In this document: one piece after another, positions 33,046 through 64,000 of the stretch
Position numbering within the stretch: the stretch's first letter is position 1
Layout: every line of letters begins with the position of its first letter
Assembly (NCBI GenBank): GCA_015499995.1
Contig: JADNRV010000139.1
Coordinates: 62,001-126,000 of the forward strand
Source: Flammula alnicola
Lineage: Eukaryota > Basidiomycota > Agaricomycetes > Agaricales > Strophariaceae
DNA: 64,000 bases
Direction: 5' to 3'
The notes under the pieces: generated by a model
The model's database searches: none
The model's input: only the letters and a program-made list of their open reading frames with translations
What the model was told of the DNA's origin: nothing
Translations under genes and position numbers: made by a program

Positions 33046-33635
33046 CTGTAACATAATATTATAGGGATTAGTATGAATCGGTGGGATGCGAGATGAGTAT
33101 AATAAATCCATACGGAGGCGCCAGAGTCTCCTGTATCCTTTGGAGTTCCATCATCGAGTATTCCAAGTCCTTCCTCTGGAATCCGATTGGCAAGTCAGCT
33201 AATAAAAAACATTGAAGGACGTAGCAATACAGACGATGCAAATTGATTGTCAAGTTGGTGCAGTGTCCTCGTGCGTTAGTGAAATGTCCACCGTTTATCC
33301 CCACATTACTGGACGACTGAAAGAAGGAGCCCGCAGAAGATCTATTTTATCATCCTCCATAATGAGTACTTACTTGGTCATGAATATTTGGAAAGCAGAG
33401 GGACATACTGTATATTCGTGTCTGACTCGGGTTCTCTCGCTGGAAACCGACTCCGACTAAGTCTAGCTTCAGCTATACGGTCCTTCTGGAAACGGTCTCG
33501 ACGATAAGGGGTGCCATGACGCCTCCCTTTCTTGTACTTGACGTTCTGACGGATGGATACAGCAATGGAAAGCAATGTGGATCACTGAATGCGACCACAC
33601 GGTACGTCGTGACACACCTGACTAGGTAACCCTTC
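33046..33635. other. Intergenic, nothing recognised
   Basis: Presumed upstream region of the preceding minus-strand gene. Short ORFs have no family features. Confidence 0.4.
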
Positions 33636-37734: not shown

Positions 37735-39963
37735 ATGGCTCGATTACCTCTAGTCTTGACTCTATATCTGCTGTCTCTCGTTACCCCCTTTTCTTCTGCA
37801 TATACATGGCCGTCACCACAATACGACACTCTCGAAGGTCTTCTCTACGAAGGACGCCGGTCGGACGGATCCAGTCTCGCCTCTCTCGTCCATCCTTGTC
37901 GGAAACGCACTGGTACTCTTGCCTCGGTCGCTGCTGAGTGGCTTCGCTTTGTGAGTACTCGCACAATGGCATTCCCTGATCTATTCTGACGAATTTATTG
38001 TATTTGTATTTCATGTAGTCCTTCCACGATATGGCAACTCATAACGTCGACAATGGCAGTGGTGGCATGGATGGATCGCTTGTCTATGAACTTGACCGCG
38101 CCGAGGTGCGTTGTTATGTTCGATGTGGTGATGGGGTTCGATGTTGCAACGCGGTGTGCTGACCTCGCCCCCAGAACTTTGGTCTAGGCTTCAACCAGAC
38201 CCTAAGCGATTTCGAGGCTTTCCCCAACAAGATGGTTTCCCGTACGTCGCTTCCGAGAGTCTATCTGGTTGTCTGACTTAACATTTACCTATCCATATTC
38301 CTTTCGACGTCGTTTAGGTGCCGATGTCATGAGCATTGGCGCTATCATGGCCGTGTCGACATGCGGCGGGCCCATTATACCCTTCCGTGGTGGCCGTGTC
38401 GACGCCTGGTCGGCGGGAGCCACTGGTACACCTGAGCCGCAGCAAGACCTGCCAACCCTTACGGAAAGCTTCAGGAAGCAAGGTTTTAACCAAGCCGAGA
38501 TGATCAAGCTCGTTGCCTGCGGCCACACCATGGGTGGAGTCAGGAGTGCCGACTTTCCCCAGCTTGTTGCTCCCGACCCGAATTCAGTTAATCCGGTCAT
38601 CAAGGATTTCGATACGACCATGAACTTTGATAACGCTGTGTAATCTTTCCTCTCGTTTCTTTTCCCTCTGAAGTGACCGGCTCATTCCTTTTTCCGTAGT
38701 GTCACGGAATATCTCGCTGGCACCACGCAGAATGTGCTAGTTGTCAGTTCGAATCAGACCATGGATTCGGATCTTCGGGTCTTTCAAAGTGATAACAATA
38801 GCACCATGAAGACGTGGGTCGAGTTCTGCCCTGTCAAACCTGAACCTGCAATACTTTTACTGACGTTTGAGGTTTAGTTTGGCGGATGCATCTACCTTCC
38901 AGTCAGAATGCCAGGCTATCCTGACTCGCATGCTGAATACTGTACCCACCGGCGTGACACTAACGGACGAGATTACCCTCCTGCCTGCTAAGGTCTCTGC
39001 TGCACAGCTGACTTTCGAGAAGAACCAACTGGTCTTCAAATCAACTTTCCGCGTCCGTTAATTCTTTCTTGCATATACTGCATTGGTAACTTATATGTAC
39101 GTCTACTCCAGCTGACACAAGCAATCAACACGACAGCAAATGCAAACCGTAACGTCACCATGCTCTGGTGCGACAAATACGGCTCCAACGCAAATTGCAC
39201 TGGCAAGACAAACGCCGCTTTGTCTGTTAGCACAGTCGCGGATGACCCGAACGTTTCGCCTATTACTCTAAAGCTCGGGTATTCTTTCCTCAACTACAAC
39301 TTTGTCGTGCCTATCAGCTCCAACGCGTCCATCACCAAGTTCTGGTTCTCGGTGGACGAGAAGAACGGCAGCAAGCCCACAGTTTACGATAACGGCGGCA
39401 GCGGATACGTCATCGATCAGGACCAGGTGCTGTTCGTCCCGATGCTGAGCCACGTTGATGTGGTGCCCAACACGACCTACACCCAAACCTATACCAACCG
39501 ACAGGGACAGGCTTTCACGCGCGTCTACAATCTCGTCGCTGCCGTGCGGGATGGCACGAACCCCTCGCGGGTGTACGTCGATGCCACGGACGTGGCTGTC
39601 ACCGATTTTCCCTACGCGATCAACAACCCTGTCGACCTGACGCTGAACTCGACGATGCCCGCCGTGTCCGGGTACTCGTTCTATACCGCCCAGGTGCAGG
39701 ACAGCGGCGTGCAGCTGAGCATTGACGTGCATGCAGTGACGGCGGCGCAAACATATACGCAGACGTTCATGCAGACGCTGTTGTTGGATAATACGCCGTA
39801 TGTGCAACCGGGGGCGGTAACGACTGCCACTACTGCTGCGACGACCAAGAGTGGTGCTGGGAGGTTGTCGCGCGTGGAAGTATGGCATGCTTTGCTTGCG
39901 GCGGTTGTTGGTGCTGCTTGCCTTGGAGGTGGAGTGGGGACCTTGCTGGACTTGGCTCTGTGA
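37735..39963 (+). CDS. Secreted heme peroxidase, probably GPI-anchored
   Basis: Seven exons (37735-37950, 38019-38105, 38175-38241, 38318-38639, 38700-38813, 38878-39052, 39112-39963) join in frame to 610 residues. A signal peptide (LVLTLYLLSLVTPFSSA) is followed by a plant-type peroxidase fold. The distal Arg71 and His75 lie in RFSFHDMATHNV, and the proximal His193 lies in KLVACGHTMGGVR. GGRVDAWSAG and PEPQQDLPTLTESF are also typical. The C-terminal 280 residues are a Thr/Asn-rich domain with many N-glycosylation sequons. The protein ends in a hydrophobic tail (WHALLAAVVGAACLGGG) with no basic residues after it, as in GPI signals. It resembles ascorbate-peroxidase-like surface enzymes of mushrooms; the substrate is unknown. 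Manganese-site acidic residues could not be located by eye. Confidence 0.85.
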
Positions 39964-41134
39964 TTGGACTGTCTGGAATTCAATTGGATCATAGATCGTT
40001 GCACCTTGGTGTTGCAGCATTACCCCCCGAAAACATGGACTGGAAAATTGACTGTTATTATCATTCATTCGTTGAATAGTTCGTATCTATTATACTTACC
40101 TGTGGACGTTTGACTACTGCTTTATTTAGTGGTAGGGAAGTTAGGCTCGGGGTGGAGTATCTTACAACTTGCATGCAGTACTATAGCGAACGCGGAAAGT
40201 AATGTATGTAATGAAATAAAATGCAATAAGGAATGCTGCAGAACTCGGCGCCTCCCAGTCTGCCACTCGAGTCGGAAAACCTTATACTTACATAAGCACG
40301 GTCGACTCGGAATATGGGCGCTTAACTTGCGCTCAACTCCTATCCACAGTTCAACATTCCTTGCTTGCCCAAATTCCTCCAGCTTTATGTCCGCGGATAA
40401 TTTACGATGGTTTCTCGTGGACAATATCGACGCCAATATACACTATCTGGGATCTTGGTTCAAAGACAAGGGCGTCCGTGATTCCGATCATCCAAATACT
40501 ACTAGACCCACTTTCAACAAGTGACTCTTCATGAGACAACGTCTAAAGCCAGCTTCTCATATTCTTCAATGGCGAGCTTTTTGCAAATCTACTACGGTAT
40601 AGGTTGACCAACTTGGAAAATGATTTGCTACAGGCTCAAAGGTCCGAGTGTTGGGGACAACAAATTTCTCTGATGATGCCAATGGGCAATTGGTAAATCC
40701 ATGGCAGTGCTACGTCGACAATGTCAACATCAGCATGAACAACCAGGTCGCCCAGAACACAACGATGGACATCGAAGTGCTTTACGAGCACGATCGTCGA
40801 TGGACTGGTGGACGGTCCGCATGTAATCGCTAGTAATGTCAACCAAACTTCAGTTCAGACACGAACGTTTTCGTTCGATCGCCTACGTATACAACACGTC
40901 GCATCTGCGAATGAGCGACGATTCTTGTTGGTTCTCTCGATTCAGATCTGCAATACGGATCGGGATGGCAGGCCGTGTTATCCAGCGCTGTAGTAGGGGT
41001 GAATACAACAGCGCATGTCACCAGAACAGCGCTCAAAGAACGGTCACACCTCTACCCCTCGACTATCTTATTGTCCAACGGCTCATCGCTGCCGTCCAAT
41101 GCCGCCACCACCTTGAAGAGGAATACAACGCATA

Positions 41135-45462: not shown

Positions 45463-46917
45463 CTATACGATGCTATGGCCGCAATAGGAATAGTATGACA
45501 TGCTATGGGAAAAATCACGGTTTGCTGATGTGAACCGGGTCTCATGCGGTTCAGAACTAACTGGGCTTCCATATTCACTCCCAACTTGGGCAGTTTGCTG
45601 TGGTTCAATGCCGTATGACCTGATGGAGAAAGATTTTGCGATGGAAGAACGGTATTTGGGAGCAGGAGGAATGGATTTGTGCATAGATGACCTGTATGGT
45701 TTGCCAGCGACGAGGTCGACAGAAGGTTCAGCAGCACTATTGATATTTGACAAGACTGCAATAGCCTGCGAGCGTGTTCTGCGCTGACGAAGCGCGAAAA
45801 GCGCGAAAATCACGAGAATGACGAATGCTAGACTGCCGATAACGCTTCCAATGATGACGCCCGCGTTATCCAGTCTATTGTGTCCAAGTCTCGCCGAGGC
45901 AATTGGAGCGGAAGTCGAACTAGGATCCTTTCCAAATGGCGCGACTGCAGAGGACGTGGTGGCAGAAGTACATCCAGGGACAAGATAATCGGAGACTGGA
46001 CTTCCGCAACCTGGTGGACTGGATGATGTGATGGTTGCATTTCCGATCACAATTCCACCCAAAGTCAAGGGTGTTTCTTTGAGATCTCCAAGATATGTAA
46101 CTAGAAGCTGGTGTGGGCCAGCAGGAAGTGGTGCGGTCTGAAATAAAATCTCTCGAAATTGGCTGCTGGTACTGGTGAATGGAATGGAGCCTTGCTGATC
46201 AATTTCGTAGGTCGCTTGTCCTAGAGGTAGATCTGAGTCGTTAGAAGAACAACTAAACCAAGTAACTGAAGTGCCTAGACACAAACCTAATTACTGACAA
46301 AACTCGAAGAAATTTTAGCGCAATCTACGCACCGACGAAGTCGAAATCGAGTGTTGCGTTACTTTGATGGGTCAACTTGTTAAGACTGCCCGGAGGATCT
46401 TTCAGCCATCCTTTTCCAAAGTGAAGCCGTGCATCCGTCGGATATATGAAAACGTTTGCCCCTTCCGGCGGCATTGTAGTAGATGAAAAATATTGAATGT
46501 AGTCCAGCCAGATTGAACTGCCTTGATCGGGAATAGTTGCATTCAGAGTTACGACATGAAGTCCATCTTGAAGTCCTGCCTTCTGGCAAAAGAAAGGTCC
46601 AGTCTCTGAGACGCTGTATATGTATTGCGGATGCACCACGTTGTTGTCGACGAAGCATTGGACATTTGGCGCTGCAGAATCATTCACAATTTGGCCCCCG
46701 CTGACAACAACTCTGGAGCCTAGATGTATGTCGGTAAGGATTCAGAAGACGAATAGAAAAGAGACTTACCATTGAAAGAATATGATAAAATGGCACTAGT
46801 GTTTACACTATGCACAGTGCCCTGGAAAAGTGGCATAGTATCCTGTGGCATACCTTGAGACCATGCTGGATCGTATACTATGGAGGAATCCGTATCGTCG
46901 ACGACAATCGAGGACAT
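45463..46917 (-). CDS. Surface receptor-like protein, two ectodomain repeats plus TM (paralogue A)
   Basis: Exons 46917-46770, 46719-46333 and 46274-45463 join at phase 1 twice, giving about 448 residues. Repeat 1 opens IVVDDTDSSIVYDPAWSQG; its intron falls after SYSFNG. Repeat 2 opens VFIYPTDARLHFGKGWLKD, with its intron after DFDFVG, and ends LPAGPHQLLVTYLGD. A Ser/Thr-rich stalk, one TM helix (GVIIGSVIGSLAFVILVIFA) and a basic cytoplasmic tail follow. No signal peptide is seen, as in its relatives here. The last about 15 residues (SMSYYSYCGHSIV) are encoded by CATAGC-rich sequence and do not resemble the PPQYTAV-type end of paralogue B, so the natural C-terminus may have been replaced. Ligand unknown; a galactose-binding-like sandwich is a guess. 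Confidence 0.78.
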
Positions 46918-47715
46918 TTTTTGTGAGACAAAGAATCTCTGAAGTGAGTGCAGGTACAGTGTCAGCTTCTTGCCACAAGATATAGAAAAGAAAGACAACT
47001 GGCGTTGCGAGGGGTGGGATCGATATCATCGCTGGAAGATCATACGAGATCTATTTAACAGGCGACGAACCTGTCTTTCTAAGTTCCGTGATGACCATCG
47101 ACGCAATAGATAGATAGGAAGTTCCAAGACAACAAGACACGAGGGTGTCATTTATAGCGATGCGGGTGGATATCAAGATGGAAAACGGCGAGTACTAGTT
47201 TCAGCGATCTCGAAGTAGAAGGAAAGATTATGCGCAGCTGACGAAGTGTCAGTCATAGCTGATTTCAATGCAAATATAGAATTTCGACTCAAGTGAGCAT
47301 AGCATCAACATAGCATCGTGCAGTGAGTGATTTGAAGAAACGTTTGAGGCTTGAGTTGAACTGCGCGCTAGTGCCGGTGGCTGTGTCATATCTGTCACGA
47401 CCATTGGATGGCTTCTCTGATTCTCTGCGAGCTCTCTGAAGACTTGGCAGACGTCTTTCCAGGATAATATATGGTAAAGGGGTCTATTATAACTGCGAGC
47501 AATTATTCTCTAAGGGCTGGGGGCCCGGACAAACCCAAACTTTGCGATGCAAAAGAAAGTCTCAACAATTAGTATATCTCTTCTATCTCCGTCATTTCTT
47601 GCTCAATGTCTTTCAACTTGCAGATATGAGTAGAATCAATGCTATTCTATGTATTTGTGCCAAAAGAAATGGGATTTTTTGTTGCTGAAACTCGAATGTT
47701 GATCTGACTGCGACA
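46918..47715. other. Upstream region of paralogue A, no gene
   Basis: No supported gene. Presumed promoter. Confidence 0.35.
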
Positions 47716-48124
47716 AGGACCCGGGAAGCTCCTGTTATTTGGTGTCCGCGAAATCTCCAAAATTCGGCCTCAAATCCGCACGGTTTCCGCCCTCAAATCC
47801 GCAAAAACGGACAGAGATTGTCACGTGAATGTCCAAATTTTCTCTCCTTGCGGGTGCTAAAAGCAATTTTTCTGGTCCCCAGCATTCGTGCGTAGGTAGA
47901 ATTTCCCAAAATGTTGGTCCATTTGGGTAGTACATGGGCATGAATCTGAAAAAATTTCGGCTGCCTGGAAACTTTGTCCGGCTGGCCTCAAATCCGCAAG
48001 AAAGTGGACAGAACTAGGATTTTTGGGCTGTCAAATCCGCAAAAAATGGACAGAGATTTGACGAATTTTGGGCCTCAAATCCGCAAATTCGCGGACACCA
48101 ACTGGGGGGAGCTTCCCGGGTCCT
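47716..48124. mobile_element. hAT-like MITE, 409 bp, 8-bp target duplication
   Basis: TIRs start AGGACCCGGGAAGCTCC and match with small gaps for about 40 bp. CTGCGACA lies directly outside both ends (47708-47715 and 48125-48132). Inside, the motif tcaaatccgca occurs five times in the same orientation, often followed by a cggacagag-like string. Confidence 0.88.
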
Positions 48125-48132
48125 CTGCGACA

Positions 48133-48381
48133 GCCTCGACAAAAGCATTGTTGGACGCGGCGGGACCAGGACCCGGACGCCCGGCCTCACCCGATCACCC
48201 TGGCCGGCGGGAACCCCACTCTAGGATGGCGCAGCGAGCCTTGCCCCGGCCGGGTTGGCGGATACGTAATCAATAGGCATCAACGCTGCTGCAGTCGAAT
48301 CCTCCATCCAGAGTTCGCCATGCTAGACACTCCTGCCGTCCCCCCCGTCTTCACGCACAGAGTCAATACTGGCGCCGCAGA
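48133..48381. other. Short host segment between two transposons
   Basis: Contains an ATG at 48320 opening MLDTPAVPPVFTHRVNTGAA, cut at 48381 by the next element. It may be the first exon of the damaged gene that resumes at 50583. Confidence 0.4.
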
Positions 48382-50513
48382 TAGGGACTAGCACGGATCG
48401 GTCATTTCCGTGGTAAAACCGTAATTTTAGTTACCGGTAAGGTACGGTACAGAACCGTGGATAAATACAAAAAACCGTGGTTTTCCGGAACAACCGGCAC
48501 CCTCATAAAGACTTATCTGAGTTTAAAACAGTGACTAGATCTAAATCGCCTTGCTGCGTAGCAGAGAGGCTTCTCCCGGTCTAAATTCACTATATAAGGA
48601 AGTGGACTTTTGTCCCATTGTTTGTTTGGTTTGGATGGTTACGTCTTCCTGTCAATCACCACCAAATAAAAGTTTATACCATTCAACTTGAAATCGAGTT
48701 TTGTCCCAATATTTGTTTGGTTTGGATGGTTACGTCTTCTTGTCAATCATCACCAAATAGAATTCTCATCCAACTTGCGTTTTGCTTGCGTTCTTGTCGA
48801 TTACCTCAATGTATTTTCGAATCTTGTACTTGTTCCCAAATTCTAATTTATAATATCATTAGCGTAGTTCCGTGCTACGCACAGTTCCTTGCAGCTTCCG
48901 CACAATTTTTTTTGATAATATTCTTTACCTGACAGGGTACAGTAAGCCAAGGGGCTGCACCCGGAAGATCCCGAGACATCGACTCCCCTTACCGTTCCTC
49001 TGATGCGAGGTGCTATCAGCTGGGGTCCTAGTCAGAAACTTCCATATCAGGAAGGGAACACTCGCGTAAGTAGGGAACCGTCGCTTAGTGGGGGAAAGGG
49101 CTGTGGCATTGGAAGAGCCACCAGTGAATGCTTCATTGCAATAAAATGTTATATAGTAAGTGCTAGTAAGGTCAAAAATATTACTGGGAGCACTGCTTAC
49201 TTGGTGAAGCTGAATAAATGTAGTTGACCTGAGCCCGGCTGATCAACAAGCTCAAGAACCCGAACCTCGGAGGGAAAGATATCGACCATGGAGGTCATAC
49301 GAGTACTGTACAAGTTCCTTGCCAGATCCTACTTCGATGTGGACCTTTGAATGACAATGAAGCACCAGTATCCTTGTCACGGAAGTAACACTGGCATACT
49401 CGACTGCCAGTGGGTCTCTGGCAATGGCAACATACTCTGTGTCTGTGCGAGGCATCACATAACAGAATGGTGATGATGACAATTTCGATGGGCATCTCGA
49501 GATATAAGTAGTGAACACTAGTGAAGCTTAAGAGACCTAGAAAAACGGATATTAGAGACAGGTAGAAAAATGTAATCTATGTGCAGCTGCCACAGTCGAC
49601 GGTACCATTGGTGATCTAAGCGAGCGTTCCCTTCCTGATATGGAAGTTTCTGACGAGGACCCCAGCTGATAGCGCCTCGCATCAGAGGAACGGTAAGGGG
49701 AGTCGATGTCTCGGGATCTTCCGAGTGCAGCCCCTTGCAGTAAGCTATTCCATCTGTTGTGCAATAAAACCAAGGTAACTGCTCGAAAACGGTACAGTTT
49801 CAGACCTGTAACAACCAATGTTGTTTCTTCGTTCAGCTCAATCTAGCCCTTCCAAGAAGTGTGAAATCAGTGATGATGCCGGGCCTGATGCTTTGAAGTC
49901 ATAATAACTTCGCCTCTAGACATAGTTGTCTCTATACATAGTAAGTAGTCTCTCTGAAATGGCGATCTTTATCCTTTCAAGGCGTGACAAATGTGACAGT
50001 GTTGCCGATGCAGCAAGGCGCTGGAGACGAAGTCGACCTTTTATAAAGAACTGTATACAAAATTACTAATGCTCATAGATGCGTCTCATCCTTTCGTCTT
50101 TCGATACCTTTCGGCTGGGGATATCCATATAAATTGACTGAAAATATTATGGAATATATGCCCAACTTTTTTAAGCACTTTAGATACCCCAGAAATTAAA
50201 ATATGGCTATACTCCATTGGGGTCTGTATTTTCGACTCATGGCATTAGCCATCTTGCACACCGCCCATGGGACGGGGCTAAATTGAATCATAGAAAATGT
50301 ATTTAAACATTGATTAGAGGTCTATTACTTCTCAAGAAAAGAAAGAACATGCAAAGCATGCCCGGACACGACAATATTCAAGCCATGAAGTCAGATTGCC
50401 AATATACGGTCGGTAGAACCGGTAACCGCGGTGGCCGTACCGTACCATACCGTATTTGGTTAAACCGCGGTTTTCGTACCGGTCGTTACCGGTCGTTACC
50501 ATGCTAGTCCCTA
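48382..50513. mobile_element. hAT-like non-autonomous element, 2.1 kb, with a nested MITE
   Basis: Ends read TAGGGACTAGCA in inverted orientation (left from 48382, right back from 50513), followed by subterminal ACCGGT/GGTAACGACC/CGGTACGG motifs in both orientations. GCCGCAGA is duplicated directly outside (48374-48381 and 50514-50521). No transposase ORF is present. A second element sits inside at 48948-49737. Confidence 0.88.
48948..49737. mobile_element. hAT-like MITE nested in the 2.1-kb element
   Basis: Very long TIRs (about 125 bp) begin CAAGGGGCTGCAC and contain gacatcgactccccttaccg in both copies. CAGTAAGC is duplicated outside (48940-48947 and 49738-49745). This gives the order of events: the outer element landed first, then this one. 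Its terminal 11 bp equal those of the MITE at 42901-43637. Confidence 0.9.
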
Positions 50514-50582
50514 GCCGCAGACCGCCTCTCCTCACAGTCGCCACCCTGACCCCGCACACCGCGGTGCTCGTGCTCATTTCAG

Positions 50583-51192
50583 ACTGCGCTGGAAAGCACG
50601 GCCCACCGACGCTCGCATCATTCAATTCTGTTGCCCAAATCCGTACTGATGCATCGGCATACTATGGGCCTTGGAACAAATTACTCCATTACCTATTCCC
50701 CTTGACTCTGGATACGAGGTCATTCCCCAATATAAACGACCGTCACAAATGAACGGGAACATCGATTTTGTTGCGCTTTTCACTGTCAAGGTCGTGCATG
50801 AACCTGTATTTTTCCTAACAATCCATCCTCCGGCCGCGTTCGACGTGGCTTCCAAGCGAGAGGAGGCCGATATACACATCCGCGACTGCTATGGCTATTA
50901 CATGGAAGGGGTCTGTGTCCCGGTCCTTCATGGCGTTAGCGCACTGGGTACCAAGCTCAGTTTCTACCGTTGCGAGGCAGACACTAAGGAGTGGACACCA
51001 CATAACGTACCTCATGAGGACGAATACGTCACCGACATCGCACCTCAAGAAAGGTGGAATGCGGACGTCCTTGAGGAAGAGGGTGCTAGGAAACTTCAAG
51101 CAATTGTCGACAATGTAAAAGCGATGTCTGCTCAAATCCAGATTTCTGTTCAGCACAAAGAAGGTGCATGCATGAGAATTCCAAGATTCTAG
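50583..51192 (+). pseudogene. Member of an uncharacterised mushroom family, frameshifted (copy 1)
   Basis: The segment follows an acceptor (atttcag, 50582). It reads ASFNSVAQIRTDASAYYGPW and LLHYLFP, then continues in another frame with DSGYEVIPQYKRPSQMNGN, HGVSALGTKLSFYRCEAD, ERWNADVLEEEG and LQAIVDNVKAM. Copy 2 at 51.3 kb has LFPVDSKYDV with no shift at this point, so copy 1 appears to lack one base near 50700. The HGVSALGTKL..FY and ERW..D(V/I)LEEEG blocks are ones I recall from a large Agaricomycete family with no assigned function. The 5' region is disrupted by the hAT-like insertion at 48382-50513. Confidence 0.6.
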
Positions 51193-51240
51193 CCTTGTCC
51201 ATTGCTTTACTCGCGTCCTGACGCTGTGTATTAGTTTCAG

Positions 51241-52050
51241 CTCCGTCCGGGATATTCTGGCCCCAACCCATTCTTGCATCGTTCGATTCCGATGCGCGAT
51301 TTAACCATATACTGAACGAGTTACCGTATGATGGCGCTTACAACCAGCTACTCAGCTATCTATTCCCCGTCGACTCTAAATACGACGTCGCTCCGCGCTA
51401 CTATCAAGTCCTTTTAGAGAGGGATATTTATTTTCACACTGTTCTCGTTGTGGAAGTCGCACGCCATCCAGTGTTTTTCATCGCAACTGGGAGTCGCGTC
51501 TCATTCGACTCTGACTACTCGCGATTGCTGTCTGATATAAGAGTGCGCCAGTACTTCGCTTCCTTGATTGACGACATCCGCATCCCGTCCTCCATGGTGT
51601 TGGCGCATTGGGTACCAAGCTCTGCTTCTACCGTTACGAGGCAGATACTCGACGCTTGACACCACCTAAAATAACTCCTCCGGATCCGAATCGCCTGACC
51701 GATACTGCACCTCTAGAAAGGTGGAATGTGGATGTCCTTGAGGAAGAGGGAGTCAGGAAACTCCAAACAGTTGTTGACGAAGTGAAGGCAATGTCTGCTC
51801 AAGCACAGGGTGCGTTCGAACTCCAACCGTCTACATATCAGATATTGATTTTAGTTTATTGTTTCAGATTGATATGTCGCTTGGACAAATTTTATCCTTT
51901 GAAATGTATCTTTTGGTGTTTCGTGCAGTACTCTATCTGGTTCCAGCCCATGTTAGTTTCTTCCACTTTAATGAATTTTTGTAACTACTGCCACTCATTG
52001 TAATTGTTGACAAGAAATTCTTCGCGCCTACTTTTCGATACAACAACTAT
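51241..52050 (+). pseudogene. Tandem second copy of the same family, also frameshifted (copy 2)
   Basis: It follows an acceptor (gtttcag, 51240). LASFDSDARFNHILNELPYD-like text leads to LLSYLFPVDSKYDVAPRYYQ and FFIATGSRVSFDSD in one frame. HGVGALGTKLCFYRYEADTR and ERWNVDVLEEEG are in another, with the shift near 51590. The 3' end carries an intron (gtgcgttc...gtttcag) that also survives as the relic at 28.6 kb. Copies 1 and 2 are a direct tandem duplication. Confidence 0.6.
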
Positions 52051-52735
52051 ATTGAAAGTGTGTACGAGACGGTACCAAGCCAGTTCCTTTATCCGTGAAA
52101 CTACTTTTCCCTCACCTCGATGAGAACTCGGAATGTCGCAACCGCTAAACGACTAAGTGCACTCTGCACGTATATGTGGTTGTTCGCTCTGTCTCCTGGC
52201 CAGGCTTTCGACTCTTGATGCAGGATGTGCAGAAGAGGATTTTGAAGGGATTATCGGCTGCAGCAAATCGACATTCGGCTCAGGTGATGCTAATTTCTTT
52301 CGGGGGTGTTTAACGTTAACCGGACCACGATGGATCATGGCGCCACGGTGACGCTGCCTGATCAGGCTTCGGCTCGTTGTCAGTTGATACCTGCGCATAA
52401 GTGAGTGGCGTTATTTCTCATGGCTCTTCCAATACGACAATGCAACATCTCGTCTCGATTCATGAACGATCAACAAATAATATGCTCGGGTATTACAGCG
52501 TAATTATCCTTACTGGCCAAGTCACTGAGGCTCAGCGATATAGAGGTTTCTGACGACGATTCTATACTCCTCCCAGACATGACTACACTACGATTAACTC
52601 ATTTTTCTACGGCCTCGCCATCTACTGCGGCAATGACGTTGGTCAAGTCTGCAGTCGCAACCAGTGAACTACAAGTAAGACATGTGTAAGTTGAAAACAC
52701 AGAAAAAAATATTATAACGTACAGTAAGTAATAAT
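52051..52735. other. Intergenic, nothing recognised
   Basis: No supported gene. Confidence 0.35.
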
Positions 52736-54287
52736 TTAAACCGCAGTGTACTGAGGAGGAGACATGTCGCTCGGTAGACGCCCACCACGATGAAATTGCT
52801 GAATTTCATCCTCATTATTGATCGATACCATGGGCGCTGTCGAAGACTGACTGAGGCTATCCGGAAGAAAGCGAGATGCCAGGGGTTGTGTCTGTCTTGG
52901 TAGAGCTGTCCGATGAGCATGATGTGCTACCATCTGCGCCTTGCTCGCCATTTGCTGATCGGGCGTGTGCGTCCTCTGGTCAAAAACGGATATCCCCGTA
53001 CTGCTGACGTGCTTTTTTGTTGTTCTGAAAAAGCTAGAGTAAGATGACGTCTCGGATTCCGTAGGAGGTTGGCTATGAGCTCCGAGTGATGCATAAGGGT
53101 CGACGAAAGGCTCTATGGTGGTAGGTCCAGTTGAACTTGTCGCAAGACCATAACGCATCCGTTCGCTTCGTCGTCGGAGGCGGATTACCGCAATTAAGAG
53201 TGCTACTATAACACAGAGGGCAGCGCCTGCTATTGTACCTCCCACGATCCCGGCGACATTGGGTATCTTCTGTGCCGAAGCTGACGCCTTAGTTATGGGC
53301 GGACTAGAAATGGGAGGGATGCTCGAAGCAGTGACATTCAGTGGTGATGTAGGATTTATCTGAACAACGAAGTAATGGAGGGCCAGGGGTGCCGTTTGGG
53401 GATTTCCGAGATAGACAACGTCAAGTTTATGCTGACCAGGCAATAATTGCCCAGTTTCAAAGAATACTTGGTTGAATGCCGATGTATTGGAGGGCCCAAC
53501 CCATGCGAACGTGATGGGAGGTTGTTCATCGATGGTATAAGTTGCTGTTGCCGCGGCGGTAGCAACAGATGGGTCTCTAATTCTAAATCCATACCAAGTG
53601 AGGGATGTACCTAGAGCCTTACAAGATAAGAGTTACGACCAAGAGTAGACATCACGTAAGTATGTGCATACCGTTGAATAAAAGGCTGAGAGTCGACCTT
53701 GTTTGCGTCGTGATATTTCCTAGTCCCGGCATGACCACAGGAAGCAACTCCCATCCGGGCCCATATTGCACTTGTGGATCATTCGAACTGATATGAGTAT
53801 ATCCATCATCTAGCACCGCAGTAGCGGATGGAAAGTAGCGGATATAATCAAACCAAAATATTCGGTCCTCCGTAGCCGTTGCGTTGATGATAAGGACATG
53901 AGGGCCGTCTAGCAATGTCTGCTGGCATAGCGGGAAGTAATTTACCGGATTTGTAAATTGTCCGCTTGGAATTTTGACACCATCGACAAAGCATTCCCAA
54001 GTGGCAGGTTCGAAATTGGCAAGGAGTGATCCTACTACAATCACTGAGGATGCTGGGTAATGGTCCAAGTTTGTTTACTTTGAGGAGGAGAGTTCAGATG
54101 ATGAGGGTAAGGATGACATACCATTGAAAGCATATGAGAAACTTGCATTAGACGCTGTTCCATGCAACGTCCCCAGAAATGGATACCCAAATTGACCCTG
54201 GTCATCATGAGTGGTTGCATTGAACCATGACCCGCTGTAATTTATATTGAGGTCGGTGTCGTCCACCTGTATGGTCGGTGTTGACAT
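52736..54287 (-). CDS. Surface receptor-like protein, two ectodomain repeats plus TM (paralogue B)
   Basis: Exons 54287-54122, 54052-53672 and 53610-52736 join at phase 1 twice to 473 residues. Repeat 1 opens IQVDDTDLNINYSGSWF and reaches its intron after FSYAFNG. It then has WECFVDGVKIP, LLDGPHVLIINAT and FWFDYIRYFPSA. Repeat 2 opens ISSNDPQVQYGPGWELLP, its intron follows LSLLFNG, and it ends LPGQHKLDVVYLGNP. A Ser/Thr/Pro stalk, a TM helix (VAGIVGGTIAGAALCVIVAL), RLRRRSERMR and a tail ending SPPQYTAV follow. No cleavable signal peptide is visible. Many NxS/T sequons in the ectodomain fit an extracellular location. This is the best-preserved full-length member in the window. Confidence 0.82.
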
Positions 54288-54862
54288 ATCAAATCCACGA
54301 GTCTATGAGTTGAATGATTGAATCTAGGTGGTGAAAGTGAAACTTCGCCGGGTAGTAGTACGATTGATATCGACGTGCTTTTATCCCCCTCACGACACTT
54401 GCAAATATGCAGATCAGCGAACCGAGGTCTACGATGGATTCTGAAACCACACACCGGTTTATAGATCTAGACACGAGGACACACTGATGGTAATTTAACG
54501 CATTGCAAACGACGAATGGCACCCAATTGCAACCTTGAAAGAACGTCGGCGTGATCGCGACCCGATCGCGAGCTTGGGTGTGGCTTCTTGGGGGAAGTCA
54601 AAACGCAGCCAGAATCAACTGCTATTCGAGAAAGTAACGAGATTGGGAGGTGCATTCGTCGAGGACAGCGGTATGCTGGAGGGACTCGGAAGCAGCACGC
54701 ATCATTACTCAGTTCACCGTCCTTGTCGCGAAAGTCGAAAGAGGAGCTGGAAACCGGACAATGGAAAATACATCATGATGTGCCAGGAACTAACACGGCT
54801 CCTGGGAGACTGAGGATCAGAGACGTGTAGGCTCGATGTAGTAGTAGCGTTGGCGGGAACTA
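54288..54862. other. Upstream region of paralogue B, no gene
   Basis: No supported gene; short ORFs only. Confidence 0.35.
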
Positions 54863-55367
54863 GGATAAAACTATTCAGAAACCCCGTTTCTGAGGGTTTC
54901 TGCGGAAGTTTCCGTAATGCGAGTCTGCCGATTGATGGCCGCTCCCTGTCACTGGTCCGTTGCGCCCCTAGATATAACAATTCCTCAGGTAAATTCATAT
55001 ATTCAACCATGTAATTACTTCCAATAATGCTTCTCTCGTTTGTCGAATATTTTGTGCGCCAAAATTTGGCGTACAGCATCTCTTGGGAGCATTCCAAGCT
55101 GCTAGACGGCCTTTCTGGGTCTTATCTCCAACTTCTACCGTTATCCCTGCAAATTAAATCTCATTTTGTTTCTTAGATGTATTTATATAGATCAAATATA
55201 CGTTCTTGCGGACAAAATTGCAACCATTAACATCGCAGGCAGCGGGGAAACACTAAGTTCATCAAATTAATTTCAATCGCCGACATGTTTTTTTTTTTTT
55301 TCCATCAACGGCATCTGTCGGCAATCACAGAAACCCCAGAAACAGGGTTTCTGAATAGTTTTATCCA
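54863..55367. mobile_element. MITE, about 505 bp, probable 8-bp duplication
   Basis: TIRs begin GGATAAAACTATTCAGAAAC and match for about 40 bp with two differences. GGGAACTA lies at 54855-54862 and 55368-55375; one extra A at 55367 separates the right TIR from the duplication. The TSD length suggests a hAT-like origin. No coding capacity. Confidence 0.8.
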
Positions 55368-55375
55368 GGGAACTA

Positions 55376-56908
55376 TAGTATATGTCACGTTTGCCGATCA
55401 GATGGAGAACCGGAGTGGCAATGATTTATTCCATTTACATATTCATTTGCAAAAGAAAAATAAGAAAAAAGAGAGAGTAAGAAAAAAAAAAAAAAGCAAT
55501 CCAAATAGAGTTCGTCAAAGCGTTCATATCATGGGCATGCGCGTGAAATTACCAAATTGTAATCTGGTCAATAATACCAGTTGGAGGATTGGGATTGAAT
55601 ATTGAGGGTTGAGGGTACGGGGGACGTGAAGGTGAAGAGGAAGATGAAGACGGAAATAAAGAAATAAAGAACCAAGCGAGAAAAACAGAAAATCGTTGCA
55701 GAGGCAGGTAATTCAGTCATGATCGCAAGAGGATAAAACAAAAAAAATCTATATGCGTAAGGGGAAAGATATGTAATGCCAACGCAGAAATAAGGTTGCT
55801 ATAACTAACGGACAATATAGAGAACTTTTGGCTCCAAGGTAGGTTTGGGGTGGATGAAGGTCGGACCTCGATCGAAGAAAGAGGCGGAGAAAAGGGGGGA
55901 ATATCAAAACCTGGGGTATAGAATTGAATTGTGGACGACTGTAAGCTCTTGTGAAAAAAGTAAATGTCAATGTCAGGGGCGATGGGGTTCGAACAGGTTG
56001 GGGTGGTGGGGATGGGATGGTGATAGATGTAAGGTAAGTAAGTAAGCGAAAATAATAGGGTTTTAGAAAGTCATTTGGCCAAAGAGTCAATAAGCCGGGA
56101 AAGTTAGAAGATGAGAGTGACAGGCAGGAACAGAACGAGGGGTAGGGCGGGACGTAATCAGAGAGGCATTGGAGGGACGGCAAGGAGGACGAGGAAGCGG
56201 GTTGGGTGTGGTGGAAAGGATAAAAGCGTTCATGTACGATAAGCGTCACGGAAGATGAAAAATAAGGGATAAAAAATATAAACCCATAGTGAGAAGAATA
56301 CGAGGGACACAGCAACAAGGGGGGTAGGGTGTGCAGTTGCAGATAGTTAGGCTGTGTGTTTACAAGGGGTGTGTGGGGGGTAAATGCGTTGGTTGAACGA
56401 GAAGAAAGGGCGGATAACTGGCATTAACGAGGAACGATGGATGGCGTGTCGGAGGAGAGATAGGCGATCTAAAGTAGCGAAAAAGGGGGGGGCAAAAAGA
56501 AGAAGTGCAGAAATCCGTAGTAGTAGCCGTCTTTTGAATTTTTTTTGAAGGCTGGACCATAAGCGTAAACCATAGCAAAGGAGGAGGCGTCGGCGGCGGC
56601 GGAGAAGAGGCGAGCCAGAAGTCGAACTGAGTCGAAAGAATCCAAGAATAGAGGCGCCACGAGCGCTCCGAAATAGGATTTGTGGGGCAAGCAGCTGTCA
56701 GTTAACCGCCCGTCCCGCACCGCCGATCCTCGTGTCCAATCGTCGGCTCATCTCCAAAACCCCAAACGCTGTATTCCCACCCTCCTGTCGTGCCCATATC
56801 ATCGTCATATCGTCATCGTCATAATGAATATATCTCTTCATCTCATCCCTCATCGATCATCATCCACATCGATGAATACACCGACGTCGTTGGCAAACTA
56901 GGCCATGC
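55376..56908. other. Intergenic and 3' region of the transporter, low complexity
   Basis: Long purine-rich plus-strand stretches produce spurious minus-strand ORFs rich in Ser, Phe, Pro and Leu. No family features. Confidence 0.4.
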
Positions 56909-58769
56909 TCACGACGCCGACCCATTGCTGCCAATTCTATCAGAGCTCGGCTTGCTGAATGAACCCAGTCCTCGCGGACTAGGACTCGGGGCTCTCGACG
57001 GCAGCCTCGAAGGCGGCTTGGACGAAAAGGGACTGCCATACGGCGCCTCATGGTACCGCTGTGTATCAAGCGCATCGTTCGCGCCCTCTACTCCTTGCCC
57101 ATGGACCAGTTCACCACTCTCCGCCAACCCAAGTTCACCCCGACCTCCTGAAGGACCTCCATTCCCACCTAGCAGCCCACTCAAGCTTGCTGTGCTGCTA
57201 TTCCGACTACTCCCTGCGCCTCCAAAACCACCCGATTTTCGGCGCATGAAAGAACCCAGGCCCAGTGCTGCAGCCGAATCTGAGGTCAGGGGTGTGCCTG
57301 GAAAGTGTGGGTAGGATGGTGAGGGCGAGGGCGACGATTTGCCAGATGATGCAGGAGAGGCATCGTTCAACACGATCGAGAACGGCGGCTCCTTGCTGAT
57401 GGGTGACGAATTGGCAGACGGTAAAGTCGCAGACGGCGGCGTAGGCTGGTTGTACATCCACGTCGCGCCGAGCACTGTCGAAGCTCCGATAATGAACGAG
57501 GGCGTAATATGGAAATCGAACAGCGCCACCGACGCGAGGAAGGATAAAACGATAGATAGCGAAGTCGCAAACCCCTTCAGGATGTTGTCAGAGTATTTAA
57601 TGACAATCGCCGTCACGAGGCCGCCAAACACCTGAATCGCGACCGTCGCCCATGCCCATCCTCCAAAGTTGCGGAAGAGGTCCAGGAAGAAACCTTGCGA
57701 GTTTGGCGGCGGCGCAGCCCACAGGATGGGCAGGAGGGCGGGGATGAGCGAGAACAAGGACAGCTGGACGTTCCGCACCCACAGGTCGGCCTTGGACCCT
57801 TTCAGCACCATCTCAAAGTACACCCCCGCCAGGCCTGAAGTGAAACATGCAGCGGTCACCGCGCCGAAGCCTTTGAGAGGGTTCATCACATGTACATGAA
57901 ACTCGTGCGCACTTCCCACCGCCGTTGACGATGGCTTGCTCATCGTATGACCCGTCCCCGCCGAGTTCTGAATCTGCACGATGCCGACTCCTATCGCGAG
58001 GAAGAAGAGCGAGAGCCATTTCACGCTCGTCAATTTCTTCCGGAGAAGCGCGACGGAGAAGGCCGCGGTGGTGAGTATTTTCATCTGATACGTAACCTGG
58101 AAGGAGGCGACGGGCAGGTTGGAGATGGCCACGAACTGGAGCGAGTTTTGGACGACGTAGAGGATGGCAGGGATGGAGAGCTTCCAGCAATCCGGGCTGA
58201 AAATTTCACCGCATAGGTCGGCAAAGGCGGTCCACCAGAGAAAGGGGGTGTTGATGGGTTTACGCCGTGTCAGGGGATGTTGATGGAGGACAGGCGAGCG
58301 GAAGAGGGCAATGACAAAAGATATAGAGCCCTTGAGGAGTTCGTTGAGAAGAACGGCTGAGGCTGGAGAGTACGCCAACGCGGGGGGTATTGACACGCGA
58401 GAATAGTGCATCACGATAGACAGCGCGGCGTTTTGGACGGCGAGGGTGACCAATCTACGTTGTGTCAATGACAAACTCCTTGCTGGCACTCCAGAGCACT
58501 CACGATACGTATTTCAGAGGCAAACCGCATATAGTCGGCTGTTGCAGCTGTTGTTGTTGCTGCTGCTGCTGCACTTGTGTGTCATATTTGTCCATGGGGT
58601 AGCCGAAGGACGCTGGGGGGAGGAGCGGCGATTGTCTTGGTGTTGGTACTCGACTCGATATGATGCTCGCTGTGAGAGAGGACGAGGAGCGGACGCTGGG
58701 CAGGGGACGTTGGTGCATTTCGGGGGAAGCAGGATGGACAGCAGCTGAAACTGTGGGGGTGTAGGCCAT
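56909..58769 (-). CDS. Golgi nucleotide-sugar transporter (UDP-galactose type)
   Basis: Two exons, 58769-58504 and 58454-56909, join at phase 2 to 603 residues. After an N-terminal Pro/Ser/Gln-rich cytosolic part of about 85 residues (with a Gln-rich run, QVQQQQQQQQLQQ), the text GLPLKYVSLVTLAVQNAALS starts the first helix. The diagnostic blocks follow: PAILYVVQNSLQFVAISNLP, TYQMKILTTAAFSVALL, GFGAVTAACFTSGLAGVYFE and VIKYSDNILKGFATSLSIVL. These fit the SLC35A/UDP-Gal transporter family (fission yeast Gms1 type), which exchanges UDP-sugar for UMP across the Golgi membrane. The C-terminal about 170 residues are a Ser/Pro/Gly-rich extension, longer than in yeast. The exact sugar is not shown by the sequence. 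Confidence 0.9.
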
Positions 58770-61052
58770 GCTCAGGAGTTTTAAGACAAAAGAGATTTAA
58801 AAGGACTTGCAGACCGAGGTTGGGCTCCGCCGTGGTCGTCGTCTCTATCGTCGTCGTTGAAGAGCTCAGTGTCTTCGTCGGCTCGTCGTCGTCGTCGTCG
58901 GTGGCAGAAAACTAGGACGGACAGGAAATCAAACAAATATTGACCCACTTTTGCGGCAAATATGGAAAAAGGGAATTGTTGCCCTTTGCGCTTCCCACGA
59001 CTCTGATCGTCCCTCTAACCCATATAGTTAGCCGCCCTATTCACACACCCTCCGATAACTCGTCCAGTGGATATTGTACTCAAGTCTTCCTTCTTCATTC
59101 AACAAACGACCTTATCATCGCTATGTACCACAGAAAAATCCTCTCAAAAACAGTCCAACGCCTCTCGAGTGATATCATGGGAACTTGTTCGTGATATCAG
59201 AAGCAGCTCGGCTGTCAACATGTCAGGAATATCAATGCCTCCACAGGGTGGCCACAGGTTTTTATTTATACCCGACGGAACGGTTTTGTCAACGTTACAT
59301 GCTTCGGAGCTTCGGACTTGAATAAAGCTTGAATATTCCAACCTCAAGAACGTTCCCGGCTTTGCAATTTTTTGTCGCGAACACGGCGCACGGCCCTCAC
59401 ACCCTGGATGGCGAAATCGAGGCACGTGTGATCAAAAAATTCGTCCCCTATAATTATAAAATCTTATGCATGCGTTGTCATATCTTCCGCGCTGCGCATG
59501 CCCTAAATTATTCCCTGGTCGCCAGCCAACGTCCTTATCCGAAGATTTTCGTGCGTTCTCGACCTCACCTCACGGTGGCGCTAGAAGACGGCAGCTGGCT
59601 TCTGGTAACCTTGAACGTCCCAAAATTAACGCACTCTCCGATTATCGTTGGGATCACCGTACGCCTCGGAATGAAGCTTCTGAATCTCGGTGTTCGCACA
59701 CGCTATCGATAATGTTATGAGGCGTTTATGCGATGCACAACGTTAACGTATTGCTCTGAAATTAGTCTGCGACGTAAAGTGTGCACGGATCAAAGCATTA
59801 GAGGTGTGTAGAACTATTCGGGTTTAGAGCTGCTTAGTTTAACCATACAACGGTAGTTAGATTCTTATAGGATGACTTACTCGCTTGACCACCGACTACG
59901 TTCTCCAAGAAGCGTGTCGGAAGGAAGGCCTCAATCTTTTATACAACAGACTCCGCGTTTCTATCGAGAGCGAGCAGACTATGCCAGGTCGTCTTCTGCG
60001 AGCGCTATCCAGGTGCCGTCATGCCTCGCTCCATCCGCTCGTGTCCGTTTTCCATGTGAAGCGGTCTTCAGCATATCGAAAATGTCGTTGTCAATTAATA
60101 CACTGAAAATGGAGTGCTCATTTTTCATCAGGTTGGCCGTTGAGCAACGCGAATTCCAGGAAGATATAATCGCCATTTTACACAGAGCTTGCGTGATAGT
60201 CGTTGCCGAAACCAAGCGCTTTTAGAGGCTTTCAGGTTGTTTAAATACACTGCCTTTAGCGCTCGGAGCAGTTGTGCACGGTAATTGTCGGCTATTTGTC
60301 GCAACCTTGGTCGCAAGTTGCAACACTGTCGCGTATGCCTGTACAGCCACCTCCGAATCGGTCCGGTAGGAACGTGATTCTACTCGAACAAACGACTCCA
60401 TGATTAACGTCCCTAACCCGTAAACCGTTACCCGTTGGGCATTTTAATGTGCCATGGCCATAGTTCTGAAATCTCCTCGAGAATGCCCCATTTTCCATTA
60501 CCTGGCCGTCTTGCCACCCTTTTTCGGGACGCCTCTCAAAGACAAAGAAAACTTCCTGGGACCTACTAAACGCAGTGCTCGTTCCAAGATCGATGTACCC
60601 GAGTGGAAATGGATTTCGTTGAGCTCAGACATATCGTATTATGGCGCTAATACAGCATCAGATTATGACTGGTCCGGATCCAATCCATTCGGTGAGTGCT
60701 GTACATGCAGTGCATGTTTCTTTATGTAAATTGGAATAACATTGATCGTTCAGAACATAGTTTTGATGCCCAGATATTAATAAAACTCGACGGGGTGTCC
60801 GTGAAGCCCACTGGCTACCAGCCATGTCATCAAACCACTGTTTTTGTTCTTTGAGAAGGGCTGATGAACTGACGAAAGTTCGTTGCCATGGGGCTCAGGC
60901 CCGTATTTCTACCAAGTCAACTTTGCAACTTCACAGTGAATCTTTTCTTTCCCAATCCAACCACAACCACGGTATTTCATCTACCAGCTGAAGAGACGCG
61001 AACTGGGCGCCCTTGACGGATTATCTCTTCAGAAGTCGAAGAACAAACAAAA
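58770..61052. other. 2.3-kb intergenic stretch
   Basis: Contains the transporter promoter with a short gtc microsatellite (58884-58900). Several ORFs of 60-130 codons, such as 59329-59712 and 60454-60729, show no family features or consistent exon pattern. Nothing else is supported. Confidence 0.4.
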
Positions 61053-62252
61053 ATGTCGCGATGGGTAGTTGTCGATGATGCCGACAGTGGAATTTTTTAC
61101 AATGGGGCATGGTTCGCAGATCGAGGGACGCTAGACAACCTGGGGAATTTTGGTGCTCCTTACCTGAGTACCTTGCATGGAACGAATTCCACTGCGAGCT
61201 TGACATACGCATTCACAGGTATGTTCTGGCCCATATCTATTATTTTATTCGAGACTCAAGCTGTCCAATAACGCAGGCACCCGAGTGCTTATTACGGGGA
61301 CAAACCAGTTTGTCAACCCTACCGGAGTCTCGTGGCAATGTTCTGTGGACAATCAGATCTTCCCAAGCGTCCCAAATAGCGTTCCAGTGAACAACCTTCT
61401 CCTTTGCGAGAAGGATGGACTGGCAGACGGACCGCACGTTATAACTGTGAATGCGACAGTATCAAATCAGGAAACCTTTTGGTTCGACTACGTCAAATAT
61501 CTTCCATCTCCGAGCGTTTCGTTAGCCCAAGCGGCGATTTCTATCGATTCGACGGATTCAGGGTTGCAATTTGACCCAGGATGGAAGCAGTTCTCCCCGG
61601 GCTTTGAGACGACGCAAACAAGCTCGAAACTTTCTTTCAACTTCACTGGTGCGTGAGACTACCTTCATCTCTTTCGATAGCCTTATCTAACGTAGTTATT
61701 TTCCTAGGTGTCTCCCTCATCTATTATGGATTTTACGATCCGAGCCTCCCTTTCGACGCAAGTTCACACACGGCGACCTACGCCATCGACGGCCAAACAC
61801 CCATCCCTTTCGACGCAATCATCAATGCTTCATCTTTGACCACCAAACCCACCGGCGTGCGATACAACCAGGTTCTCTTCGAGACCGCAAAACTTCCTGC
61901 TGGCCCGCATACGCTCGAGGTCGAGTACTTAGGGACAAATGCAACAACACCGTTAACGTTCGAATTCCTGGTAGTTCAGAATGGCACATCGGCCTCATCT
62001 CCAGCTCCGGTCTCGTCTTCCACTCTCCCTGGACCGGTCGCCTCTTCTTCTGGTGTTCTTCCGTTCACACCGACGTCGTTTACAACGTTAACTCTGTCGG
62101 GTACTTCATCCTCTACGTCTTTGGCGCCTGGCGTGACGCCGACTTCTGCTGCTAGCACCGCATATCAATCAAACAACACCTCCATGCTGGCCCTCGCCAG
62201 TCTTGCAGTATTCTTTCTTTGTCGGCGCAATGCGCGATCAAATCGGTATTAG
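61053..62252 (+). CDS. Surface receptor-like protein, two ectodomain repeats (paralogue C)
   Basis: Exons 61053-61218, 61277-61648 and 61708-62252 join at phase 1 twice to 360 residues. Repeat 1: WVVVDDADSGIFYNGAWF, intron after LTYAFTG, then WQCSVDNQIFPS, LADGPHVITVNATV and WFDYVKYLPSPS. Repeat 2: ISIDSTDSGLQFDPGWKQF, intron after LSFNFTG, then LPAGPHTLEVEYLG. A Ser/Thr-rich stalk follows. The C-terminus is a short hydrophobic segment (MLALASLAVFFLC) with only RRNARSNRY behind it, so unlike paralogues A and B it lacks a long cytoplasmic tail. It may be tail-anchored, GPI-processed or truncated. Confidence 0.82.
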
Positions 62253-62830: not shown

Positions 62831-64000
62831 CTATTCCACTGTCACATCATGTACACTTTGAGGGAAACTAGCCGAAGTCTTCACAGTTGGCGGCCAATCA
62901 ACTGACTTTGGGGATAAGGGCGCAGGTGCATCATGCTCGAAAGGGTATTCGTCGAGCACTGAGAGGCTCTGGATCCTAGAGACTTTCATTCCGCTCGACG
63001 GCCTCGAAAGCCATGGAAAACTCCTCCAGGAAGATATCGACGCCCTTGCACAAGGATATCTGGAAGAAGCTGGCAGGAAATCTTCATACGAAAATGGGCT
63101 GGGCGCCATGATTTCGTTTGTAGGGCGAGAGCGTGAGGGGGCCGAGGTTGAGTTATCGGATGTCGCTAGGCGAAAGGTGGGAAGCGTAACCATTGAGTGC
63201 AATGATTGCGCGCGGGAGTAAAAAATACTGCCTAAGTATTCCTTTGGTTCGAAAGAGCTAATCGTTGGTGGTGCTGGTGGGTACTTTTTCGTTGAAAAAG
63301 GGCCAAAGATAGGAAACCTCGGTCTCCTAACATAGATGACGAGGCAGAGAGTTATGAAAAAGAGACACCCCATAATTATTGCAACAATGTATCCCAATGG
63401 GAGCGGCTTGCGCATTCCTGTAGGGAGGGAGGTTGTTGTCCCAGTAGAATACTGAGAAGGACTTGAAGGTAGAGCCTCGGAGATTGAAGCTGGTAACGCA
63501 CTCGAAAGGGGTAAAGATGTCGAACTTGATGTGGTATAGGCGCCTATAGTGGCGGATGATGCAACAGAGGCTGAACTCGGCGCAAGCGTAGTCGTAACAA
63601 TGACTCCTTCTGTGGTCGCGACGACTGGCTGTCCATTGGAACTGTCGCTCTGTCCATTGGAACCGCCGCTCTGGCCATTGGAACCGTCGCTCTGGCCATT
63701 GAAACCGTCGCTCTGGCCATTGGAACCATCGCTCTCGTTCGTCGATTTATAGGCGTTGAGGCCGACAACTGCTGGATTAATGGGTGTTGGCTTAACGAAT
63801 GCTGGTTTTGCGAATGCTGGGTTTATGGGCGTCGGTTTTACGGAACAGACAGGGCCAAAGGGACAGGAATCATGTTCATTCGGCGAGACTGGTGCCATAT
63901 TCCTACCAGAGTCTGAGCATTAATGCTGTTGTGCAACGCATAAATTGGAGGGGGACTTACTGACTGAAAGGCGAAATCTAATGAGATAAGAGGCGAAGAA
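62831..64000 (-). CDS. Single-pass membrane protein, C-terminal part; 5' end beyond window
   Basis: The main exon ends in the stop at 62831 and starts at about 63899. An upstream exon from 63965 into the right edge can be joined (FAFQ then NMAPVSPNEHDSCPFG), leaving the N-terminus outside. After a short Cys-containing segment come a Pro-rich stretch, five SDGSNGQ-like heptads (63629-63733), a Ser/Thr stalk, one TM helix (LGYIVAIIMGCLFFITLCLV) and a cytoplasmic tail of about 150 residues rich in Ser and Pro. The architecture (stalk, TM, tail) matches the neighbouring surface family, but the ectodomain is not visible, so membership cannot be tested. Confidence 0.6.
63629..63733 (-). repeat. 21-bp minisatellite, five units, coding
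   Basis: Units such as ctggccattggaaccgtcgct repeat in phase with the reading frame and encode the heptad SDGSNGQ (variants SDGFNGQ, SGGSNGQ, SDSSNGQ). Copy number could vary between strains and change stalk length. Confidence 0.9.

Follow-up and report, generated by a model that had tools for sequence, protein, structure and literature searches.

Does the doubled ectodomain of a fungal surface protein go back to a single-domain gene that already carried its intron? This question is raised by three related genes, A, B and C, of Flammula alnicola, which lie in a 64,000-nucleotide (nt) stretch of DNA (the window; positions 62,001 to 126,000 of contig JADNRV010000139.1, here C45) from a 74.4 Mb genome assembly of 861 contigs. 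A first-pass annotation had read them as a surface-protein family that arose by tandem duplication of an intron-bearing one-domain gene. Our data suggest that they probably belong to an old Agaricomycete family of single-pass surface proteins that would expose the N terminus without a signal peptide, carry glycan-binding CE2_N-like domains, be turned over through a PPxY motif, and have been doubled once.

Each gene spliced cleanly into three exons and two introns (50-69 nt, GT..AG; exon lengths modulo 3 of 1, 0 and 2), and each product runs from two homologous domains (D1 and D2) through a stalk and a transmembrane (TM) helix to a tail. In gene A (45463-46917, − strand), exon 1 (46770..46917) encodes the N-half of D1, exon 2 (46333..46719, phase 1-1) the C-half of D1 and the N-half of D2, and exon 3 (45463..46274) the C-half of D2, the stalk, the TM helix and the tail. 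They are separated by intron 1 (46720..46769, 50 nt) and intron 2 (46275..46332, 58 nt). The ATG of gene A stands directly before VVDDTD, with no in-frame ATG upstream before a stop. Gene B (52736-54287, − strand) divides its domains in the same way among exon 1 (54122..54287), exon 2 (53672..54052) and exon 3 (52736..53610), with introns of 69 nt (54053..54121) and 61 nt (53611..53671). Its spliced product was identical at 472 of 473 residues to the public F. alnicola model BDZ97DRAFT_209852 (P0001), with which exon 1 agrees. Hydropathy of P0001 placed the TM helix at residues 308-327 of 473 (53177..53236, − strand), followed by RRRSER, and a C-terminal PPQY motif of the PPxY type lies at 52748..52759 (− strand). 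Gene C (61053-62252, + strand) has the same domain halves in exon 1 (61053..61218), exon 2 (61277..61648) and exon 3 (61708..62252), with introns of 58 nt (61219..61276) and 59 nt (61649..61707). Its exon 3 continues into a Ser/Thr-rich stalk, a TM segment that is weak by eye and a short basic end, a tail of ~10 residues. Further F. alnicola models (P0009, P0013, P0036 and P0043) match other family genes of the genome.

The first-pass annotation had described the ectodomain as two similar repeats, and profile comparison bore this out. The D1 and D2 profiles, built from 36 and 37 rows, aligned in hhalign over 111 columns with a score of 70.4 (probability 97.47%, E = 7.8e-12). Controls scored 15.9 (reversed D2 profile) and at most 17.3 (30 column-shuffled D2 profiles). 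Each domain spans ~130 residues. With the D2 hidden Markov model (HMM) alone, 28 of 42 homologues showed two matching stretches and 14 a single one; with the D1 HMM, 6 of 41 matched homologues showed two and 35 one. Each model had been built from most of these same proteins. We saw no three-domain protein; the rows with three matches, P0036 (among the 42) and P0079, look like a D1 split in two. The block that opens each repeat, which had been given as D-x-(5-6)-Y/F-x(2,4)-W, is more exactly D-x4-[YF]-x3-W (6/6 repeats of A, B and C).

All six introns of A, B and C are phase 1 and follow F-N/V/T. This agrees with the earlier placement after F(N/V/T)G in phase and position; the split codon is Gly at five of the sites and Ala in D1 of gene B. 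We modelled 18 two-domain genes of the main family, namely A, B, C and 15 from loci L009-L021, with one haplotype per locus, paired as far as match scores allowed. Seven relatives were modelled as well: two of another two-domain type (L028, L029), four one-domain genes (L022, L025, L026, L027) and one with a signal peptide (L015). Every domain copy (45/45) could be read with a phase-1 intron at one common place, with F-x-(split codon) exact in 43 and one codon off in two, and the split codon was Gly in 44/45. The main-family sites alone were all phase 1 after F-x (36/36). Among the one-domain genes, L022 and L025 carry the intron exactly at the site and L026 and L027 within one codon; in the latter two the best-looking donor is one codon off, and the site would be exact with an alternative donor. 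In L009b, D1 is incomplete and its acceptor is shifted. Several genes have other in-frame splice options, from which the best-scoring or consensus-like one was chosen, and this biases these counts toward the expected site.

Evidence independent of splice choice came from four open reading frames (ORFs) of other contigs that seem, judged by source and sequence, to have been called without splicing. These carry intron-sized inserts of 17-21 residues at the site (P0027 in both domains, P0037 and P0038 in D1, and P0064 in a one-domain protein). Of the other two-domain models, 1/33 (P0028) has an insert of at least 12 residues, in this case 13 residues long and about four residues after the D2 site. 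The presence of the same intron in both domains and in one-domain relatives indicates that the intron predates the doubling. It is not universal in the wider superfamily, because L031 and L032, members of a CE2_N-matching subfamily that score below its cut-off, read through F-N-G-T with no intron there.

Phylogenetic analysis separated the two domains of the main family. In a tree of 76 domain rows, 34 main-family D2s formed one clade (99/98) and 34 D1s another (98/86), with the one-domain forms and the L028 and L029 domains outside both. The two clades were each recovered at 100/99 in a 56-row tree, which, like the approximately unbiased (AU) tests, omitted six long or odd branches (P0077_D1, P0077_D2, P0088_one, L028_D1, L028_D2 and L029_D2). 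The main family spans Agaricales and Sphaerobolus (Geastrales), and the inclusion of Sphaerobolus indicates that the doubling is old rather than local. The tree also makes A, B and C look like paralogues of long standing. Both domains of C group with a Psilocybe protein (D2, 94/93; D1, 98/90). D2 of B groups with a Hebeloma protein (98/88) and its D1 was not placed; D2 of the A allele on contig C46 groups with a Hypholoma protein (90/91) and its D1 falls elsewhere. One-domain proteins occur in Daedaleopsis (Polyporales) and in many Trametes, Ganoderma and similar fungi, which are likewise Polyporales. The trees do not place the Serendipita protein P0062 or the other two-domain type (L028, L029), and their deep forks are unresolved; the domains are short. 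P0062 (Serendipita sp. 396, Sebacinales) is itself a two-domain protein that shares DSGLR and the PPxY end.

How the two domains came together is less clear. Domain homology, the shared intron and the intron-bearing one-domain genes of the same genome all uphold the part of the first-pass annotation that derived the two-domain gene from intron-bearing one-domain units. Its further step, an internal tandem duplication, has a serious if somewhat doubtful competitor, in which two one-domain genes that had already diverged into a D1-like and a D2-like form, each with the ancestral intron, were fused. D2 grouped with four Flammula one-domain genes in the 56-row tree (96/81), and by profile comparison both halves of these genes were nearer D2 (N-half, 39.8 vs 35.6; C-half, 93.0 vs 45.7). 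The halves of the Polyporales one-domain proteins were nearer D1 (N-half, 57.6 vs 43.7; C-half, 81.3 vs 71.9). However, D1 and the Polyporales forms did not make a clade in the best tree, although a constraint to that effect was not rejected (p-AU = 0.206). A single clade of D1 and D2 was not rejected either (p-AU = 0.222), and the short domains and poorly resolved deep forks limit the weight of any such grouping. Sequence data do not tell internal duplication and fusion of diverged genes apart. Under both, the main-family two-domain form would have arisen once, before the Agaricales/Sphaerobolus split, from intron-bearing one-domain units that still exist.

It is unlikely that the one-domain genes are instead secondary, formed when introns 1 and 2 recombined and exon 2 was dropped. 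The exon phases would permit such an event: with half of each domain on a phase 1-1 exon 2, adding or removing that exon changes the number of domains and keeps the frame. Single-sequence HMM scores also hinted at hybrids, with the N-half nearer D1 in 31/40 one-domain rows and the C-half nearer D2 in 29/40, but the 40 rows are mostly close relatives and the counts are not independent. Profile-profile scores did not uphold a hybrid origin, given that both halves were D1-like in Polyporales and D2-like in Flammula, and no three-domain protein was among those seen. Independent insertion of introns at the same site in D1 and D2 is very improbable: intron gain is known in fungi and the F-x-G around the site is itself conserved, but column and phase agree at all main-family sites and in the one-domain, signal-peptide-type and other two-domain relatives, ORFs of other contigs carry inserts at the same site, and exon sequence ahead of the donor, variable apart from the G of the split codon, shows no single insertion target.

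We then considered the orientation of these proteins in the membrane. Of 37 aligned homologues, 35 two-domain proteins were left after removal of the fragments P0006 and P0034, and 34 of these are complete (P0005 lacks a start). A Met lies 6-15 residues ahead of the DD of the first domain in 34/34 complete homologues, and residue 2 is S, A, T, V or G in 32/34. No homologue (0/35) had signal-peptide-like hydrophobicity, scored as a 12-residue window with mean hydropathy of at least 1.0 in the first 46 residues. In 22/24 family genes of the genome, the stretch from the last stop to the proposed start is free of in-frame ATGs. A hidden upstream exon encoding a signal peptide was also rejected, as a search with set criteria gave a candidate in 0/24 family genes compared to 3/400 random places. 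The ten residues after the TM helix are net positive in 35/35 homologues. N-glycosylation sequons were enriched in the ectodomain (182 vs 107 ± 9 in shuffled sequences; reached in 0/500 shuffles), with no clear enrichment in the tail (37 vs 30 ± 5; 38/500). A Cys pair is present in D1 of 34/35 homologues, and PPxY lies within the last 25 residues of 27/35. From the placement of the Met, the missing signal peptide, the sequons, the Cys pair and the positive flank we infer that these are N-out surface proteins without a signal peptide.

The one-domain relatives share most of these features. This set comprised P0040 and P0043-P0088 (47 rows; P0089-P0102 were not used), reduced to 38 by removal of nine two-domain or partial rows. 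Of these, 32/38 start directly at the domain, P0085 and P0087 open with a stretch that resembles a signal peptide, and P0040, P0053, P0059 and P0088 have longer or odd starts. PPxY occurs in the last 35 residues of 37/38 and DSGxR in 34/38, and the flank after the TM helix is net positive in 37/38. Sequons were again enriched in the ectodomain (104 vs 50 ± 6; 0/500) and close to shuffled levels in the tail (34 vs 32 ± 5; 184/500). The D1 Cys pair is not shared with them, since 29/38 have no ectodomain Cys.

A missing signal peptide would also suit an intracellular ectodomain, that is, a soluble N-terminal domain on a tail-anchored or type II protein. We regard this as improbable: the sequon enrichment is confined to the ectodomain, the Cys pair is conserved, and a positive flank follows every TM helix of the 35 homologues. 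The sequon and charge trends recur in the one-domain relatives, as the Cys pair does not. The N-out orientation preferred here would have the TM helix act as a reverse signal-anchor, so that the glycosylated N-terminal domains would face outward and the tail would lie in the cytosol. This raises the question of how ~270 N-terminal residues, probably containing a disulfide, would pass the membrane of the endoplasmic reticulum without a signal peptide.

We compared the domains with known families. CE2_N (PF17996), the N-terminal domain of carbohydrate esterase 2, has a galactose-binding-like jelly-roll fold. It matched 15/37 members at E ≤ 0.1 (best E = 1.2e-9), and P0030 passed its gathering score of 27.9 bits with 38.6 bits over two stretches. 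In the genome, a CE2_N search found two sub-threshold places (L031 and L032). Pfam scans of the 37 members gave no name beyond weak CE2_N matches, and NCBIfam gave none for ten domain sequences. When gene B or the whole alignment was searched against PDB sequences, matches fell in the TM and tail part only; a search with the domain profile returned two chance-level rows, the better one a glycosyl hydrolase (3nqh, E = 0.15). The CE2_N matches suggest that the domains may adopt a CE2_N/galactose-binding-like beta-sandwich, although in contrast to CE2_N proper no esterase domain was reported beside them and they sit on a TM protein.

Each such beta-sandwich may bind a glycan of the cell wall or of a neighbouring hypha, and the proteins would then serve as sensors or adhesins; a receptor or adhesin role is consistent with the proposed topology. 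In most members, including B but not A or C, the C-terminal PPxY may recruit a ubiquitin ligase of the Rsp5 type through its WW domains and so control turnover at the surface. The genome encodes WW domains, three of them close together on contig C179.

Several observations weigh against parts of this explanation. An upstream in-frame ATG does exist in 2/24 family genes (L009b and L017), and signal-peptide-like starts occur in relatives outside the family (P0042, P0085, P0086, P0087 and L015), in L015 as a stretch at the start of the same exon. Of five members examined against CE2_N, P0032 fell below the cut-off with 25.5 bits and P0010, P0017 and P0040 had no row. A, B and C themselves had no CE2_N row at E ≤ 1, and their sole ectodomain Pfam row was a sub-threshold PF09264 in C (E = 0.18, residues 187-210). 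A and C end without PPxY.

We also compared the proteins with known surface systems. WSC/Mid2 sensors share an ectodomain, a Ser/Thr-rich stalk, one TM helix and a cytosolic tail with the family, and P0088 is labelled 'Mid2 domain-containing' by its source. Membership was rejected: the ectodomain is different, the Mid2 row in P0010, the best among five proteins, is weak (E = 0.064; 13.5 bits vs a cut-off of 23.2), and WSC was not among the best 25 of 30 Pfam families for the 37 members. Known WSC/Mid2 sensors have signal peptides. Yeast Fus1 is an N-out single-pass protein without a cleaved signal peptide, similar in this respect to the family, but its outer part is short and has no folded domain pair, compared to ~270 residues in two domains here. 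The Armillaria galactose-binding-like proteins (GBDPs) are likewise a large galactose-binding-like class in an agaric; PMC7827401 counts 84 and 89 such genes, of which 13 and 29 are raised in invasive mycelium, and the count covers all GBDPs including CBM67 proteins. The snb1/snowball family, as described in PMC10949477, consists of Agaricomycete membrane proteins of unknown mechanism with seven predicted TM helices and DUF6533; it was rejected as a relative by this difference in architecture rather than by sequence.

The missing signal peptide, the PPxY tail and the CE2_N-like match are new beyond the first-pass annotation. Among the titles listed by a literature search, to which most subscription papers were out of reach, none concerned this family. 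Public databases carry its members under the labels hypothetical, uncharacterised or transmembrane protein, so what is new is the combination of features rather than the kind. Members occur in many Agaricomycetes. Recognition of walls and neighbours is a necessity for mushroom-forming fungi, yet few of their surface receptors are known. The family has testable hallmarks, and the fixed intron is a clean marker for dating the domain doubling. Tentatively, Agaricomycetes might possess a large class of lectin-like receptors that are exported N-end first without a signal peptide, have one or two galactose-binding-like domains, each split by an intron, and undergo PPxY-dependent, ubiquitin-controlled endocytosis, a mushroom-specific recognition layer with a variable number of domains and a fixed intron.

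The first-pass annotation had also placed a dead copy in the cluster. A recognisable decayed copy with several stops and frame changes is present at 40387..41081 (+ strand; best tblastn match P0012, E = 6.4e-15, with HMM pieces), outside the 45463..62252 span of A to C. A copy suspected near 60.4-61 kb was not borne out: when 44 family proteins, each cut to its first 330 residues, were compared by tblastn with 60.3-61.05 kb, nothing matched at E ≤ 10. Contig C46 matches A, B, C and the decayed copy in an order inverse to C45, and exon-2 pieces of the decayed copy are present there too (locus L024). This inverse match suggests that the assembly contains both haplotypes.

Elsewhere in the genome, L015, L033, L034 and L035 hold near-identical copies (90-98% to the query) of one one-domain gene. 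A signal-peptide-like start is seen in two L015 copies and one L033 copy, and frames nearby end in PPGYTP. L015 also holds two remnants with the last domain half alone, which stand outside the intron counts.

The surroundings of the three genes in the window showed further features. Between A and B lies a transposon-like 121-nt inverted repeat (48948-49068 and 49617-49737; 96% complementary, 548 nt apart). Upstream of gene B are 36-nt inverted repeats that resemble a miniature inverted-repeat transposable element (54863-54898 and 55331-55366; 92%, 432 nt apart). A DNA search of a plasmid collection gave no match, as expected. Two frames on the − strand, 62834-63919 and 31399-33150, have by eye one TM segment and Ser/Thr-rich parts, with no Pfam family at E ≤ 0.001. 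Other frames matched a nucleotide-sugar transporter (56912-58513, − strand; PF04142), a peroxidase (38206-38640, + strand; PF00141) and a class 3 lipase (24892-25749, − strand; PF01764).

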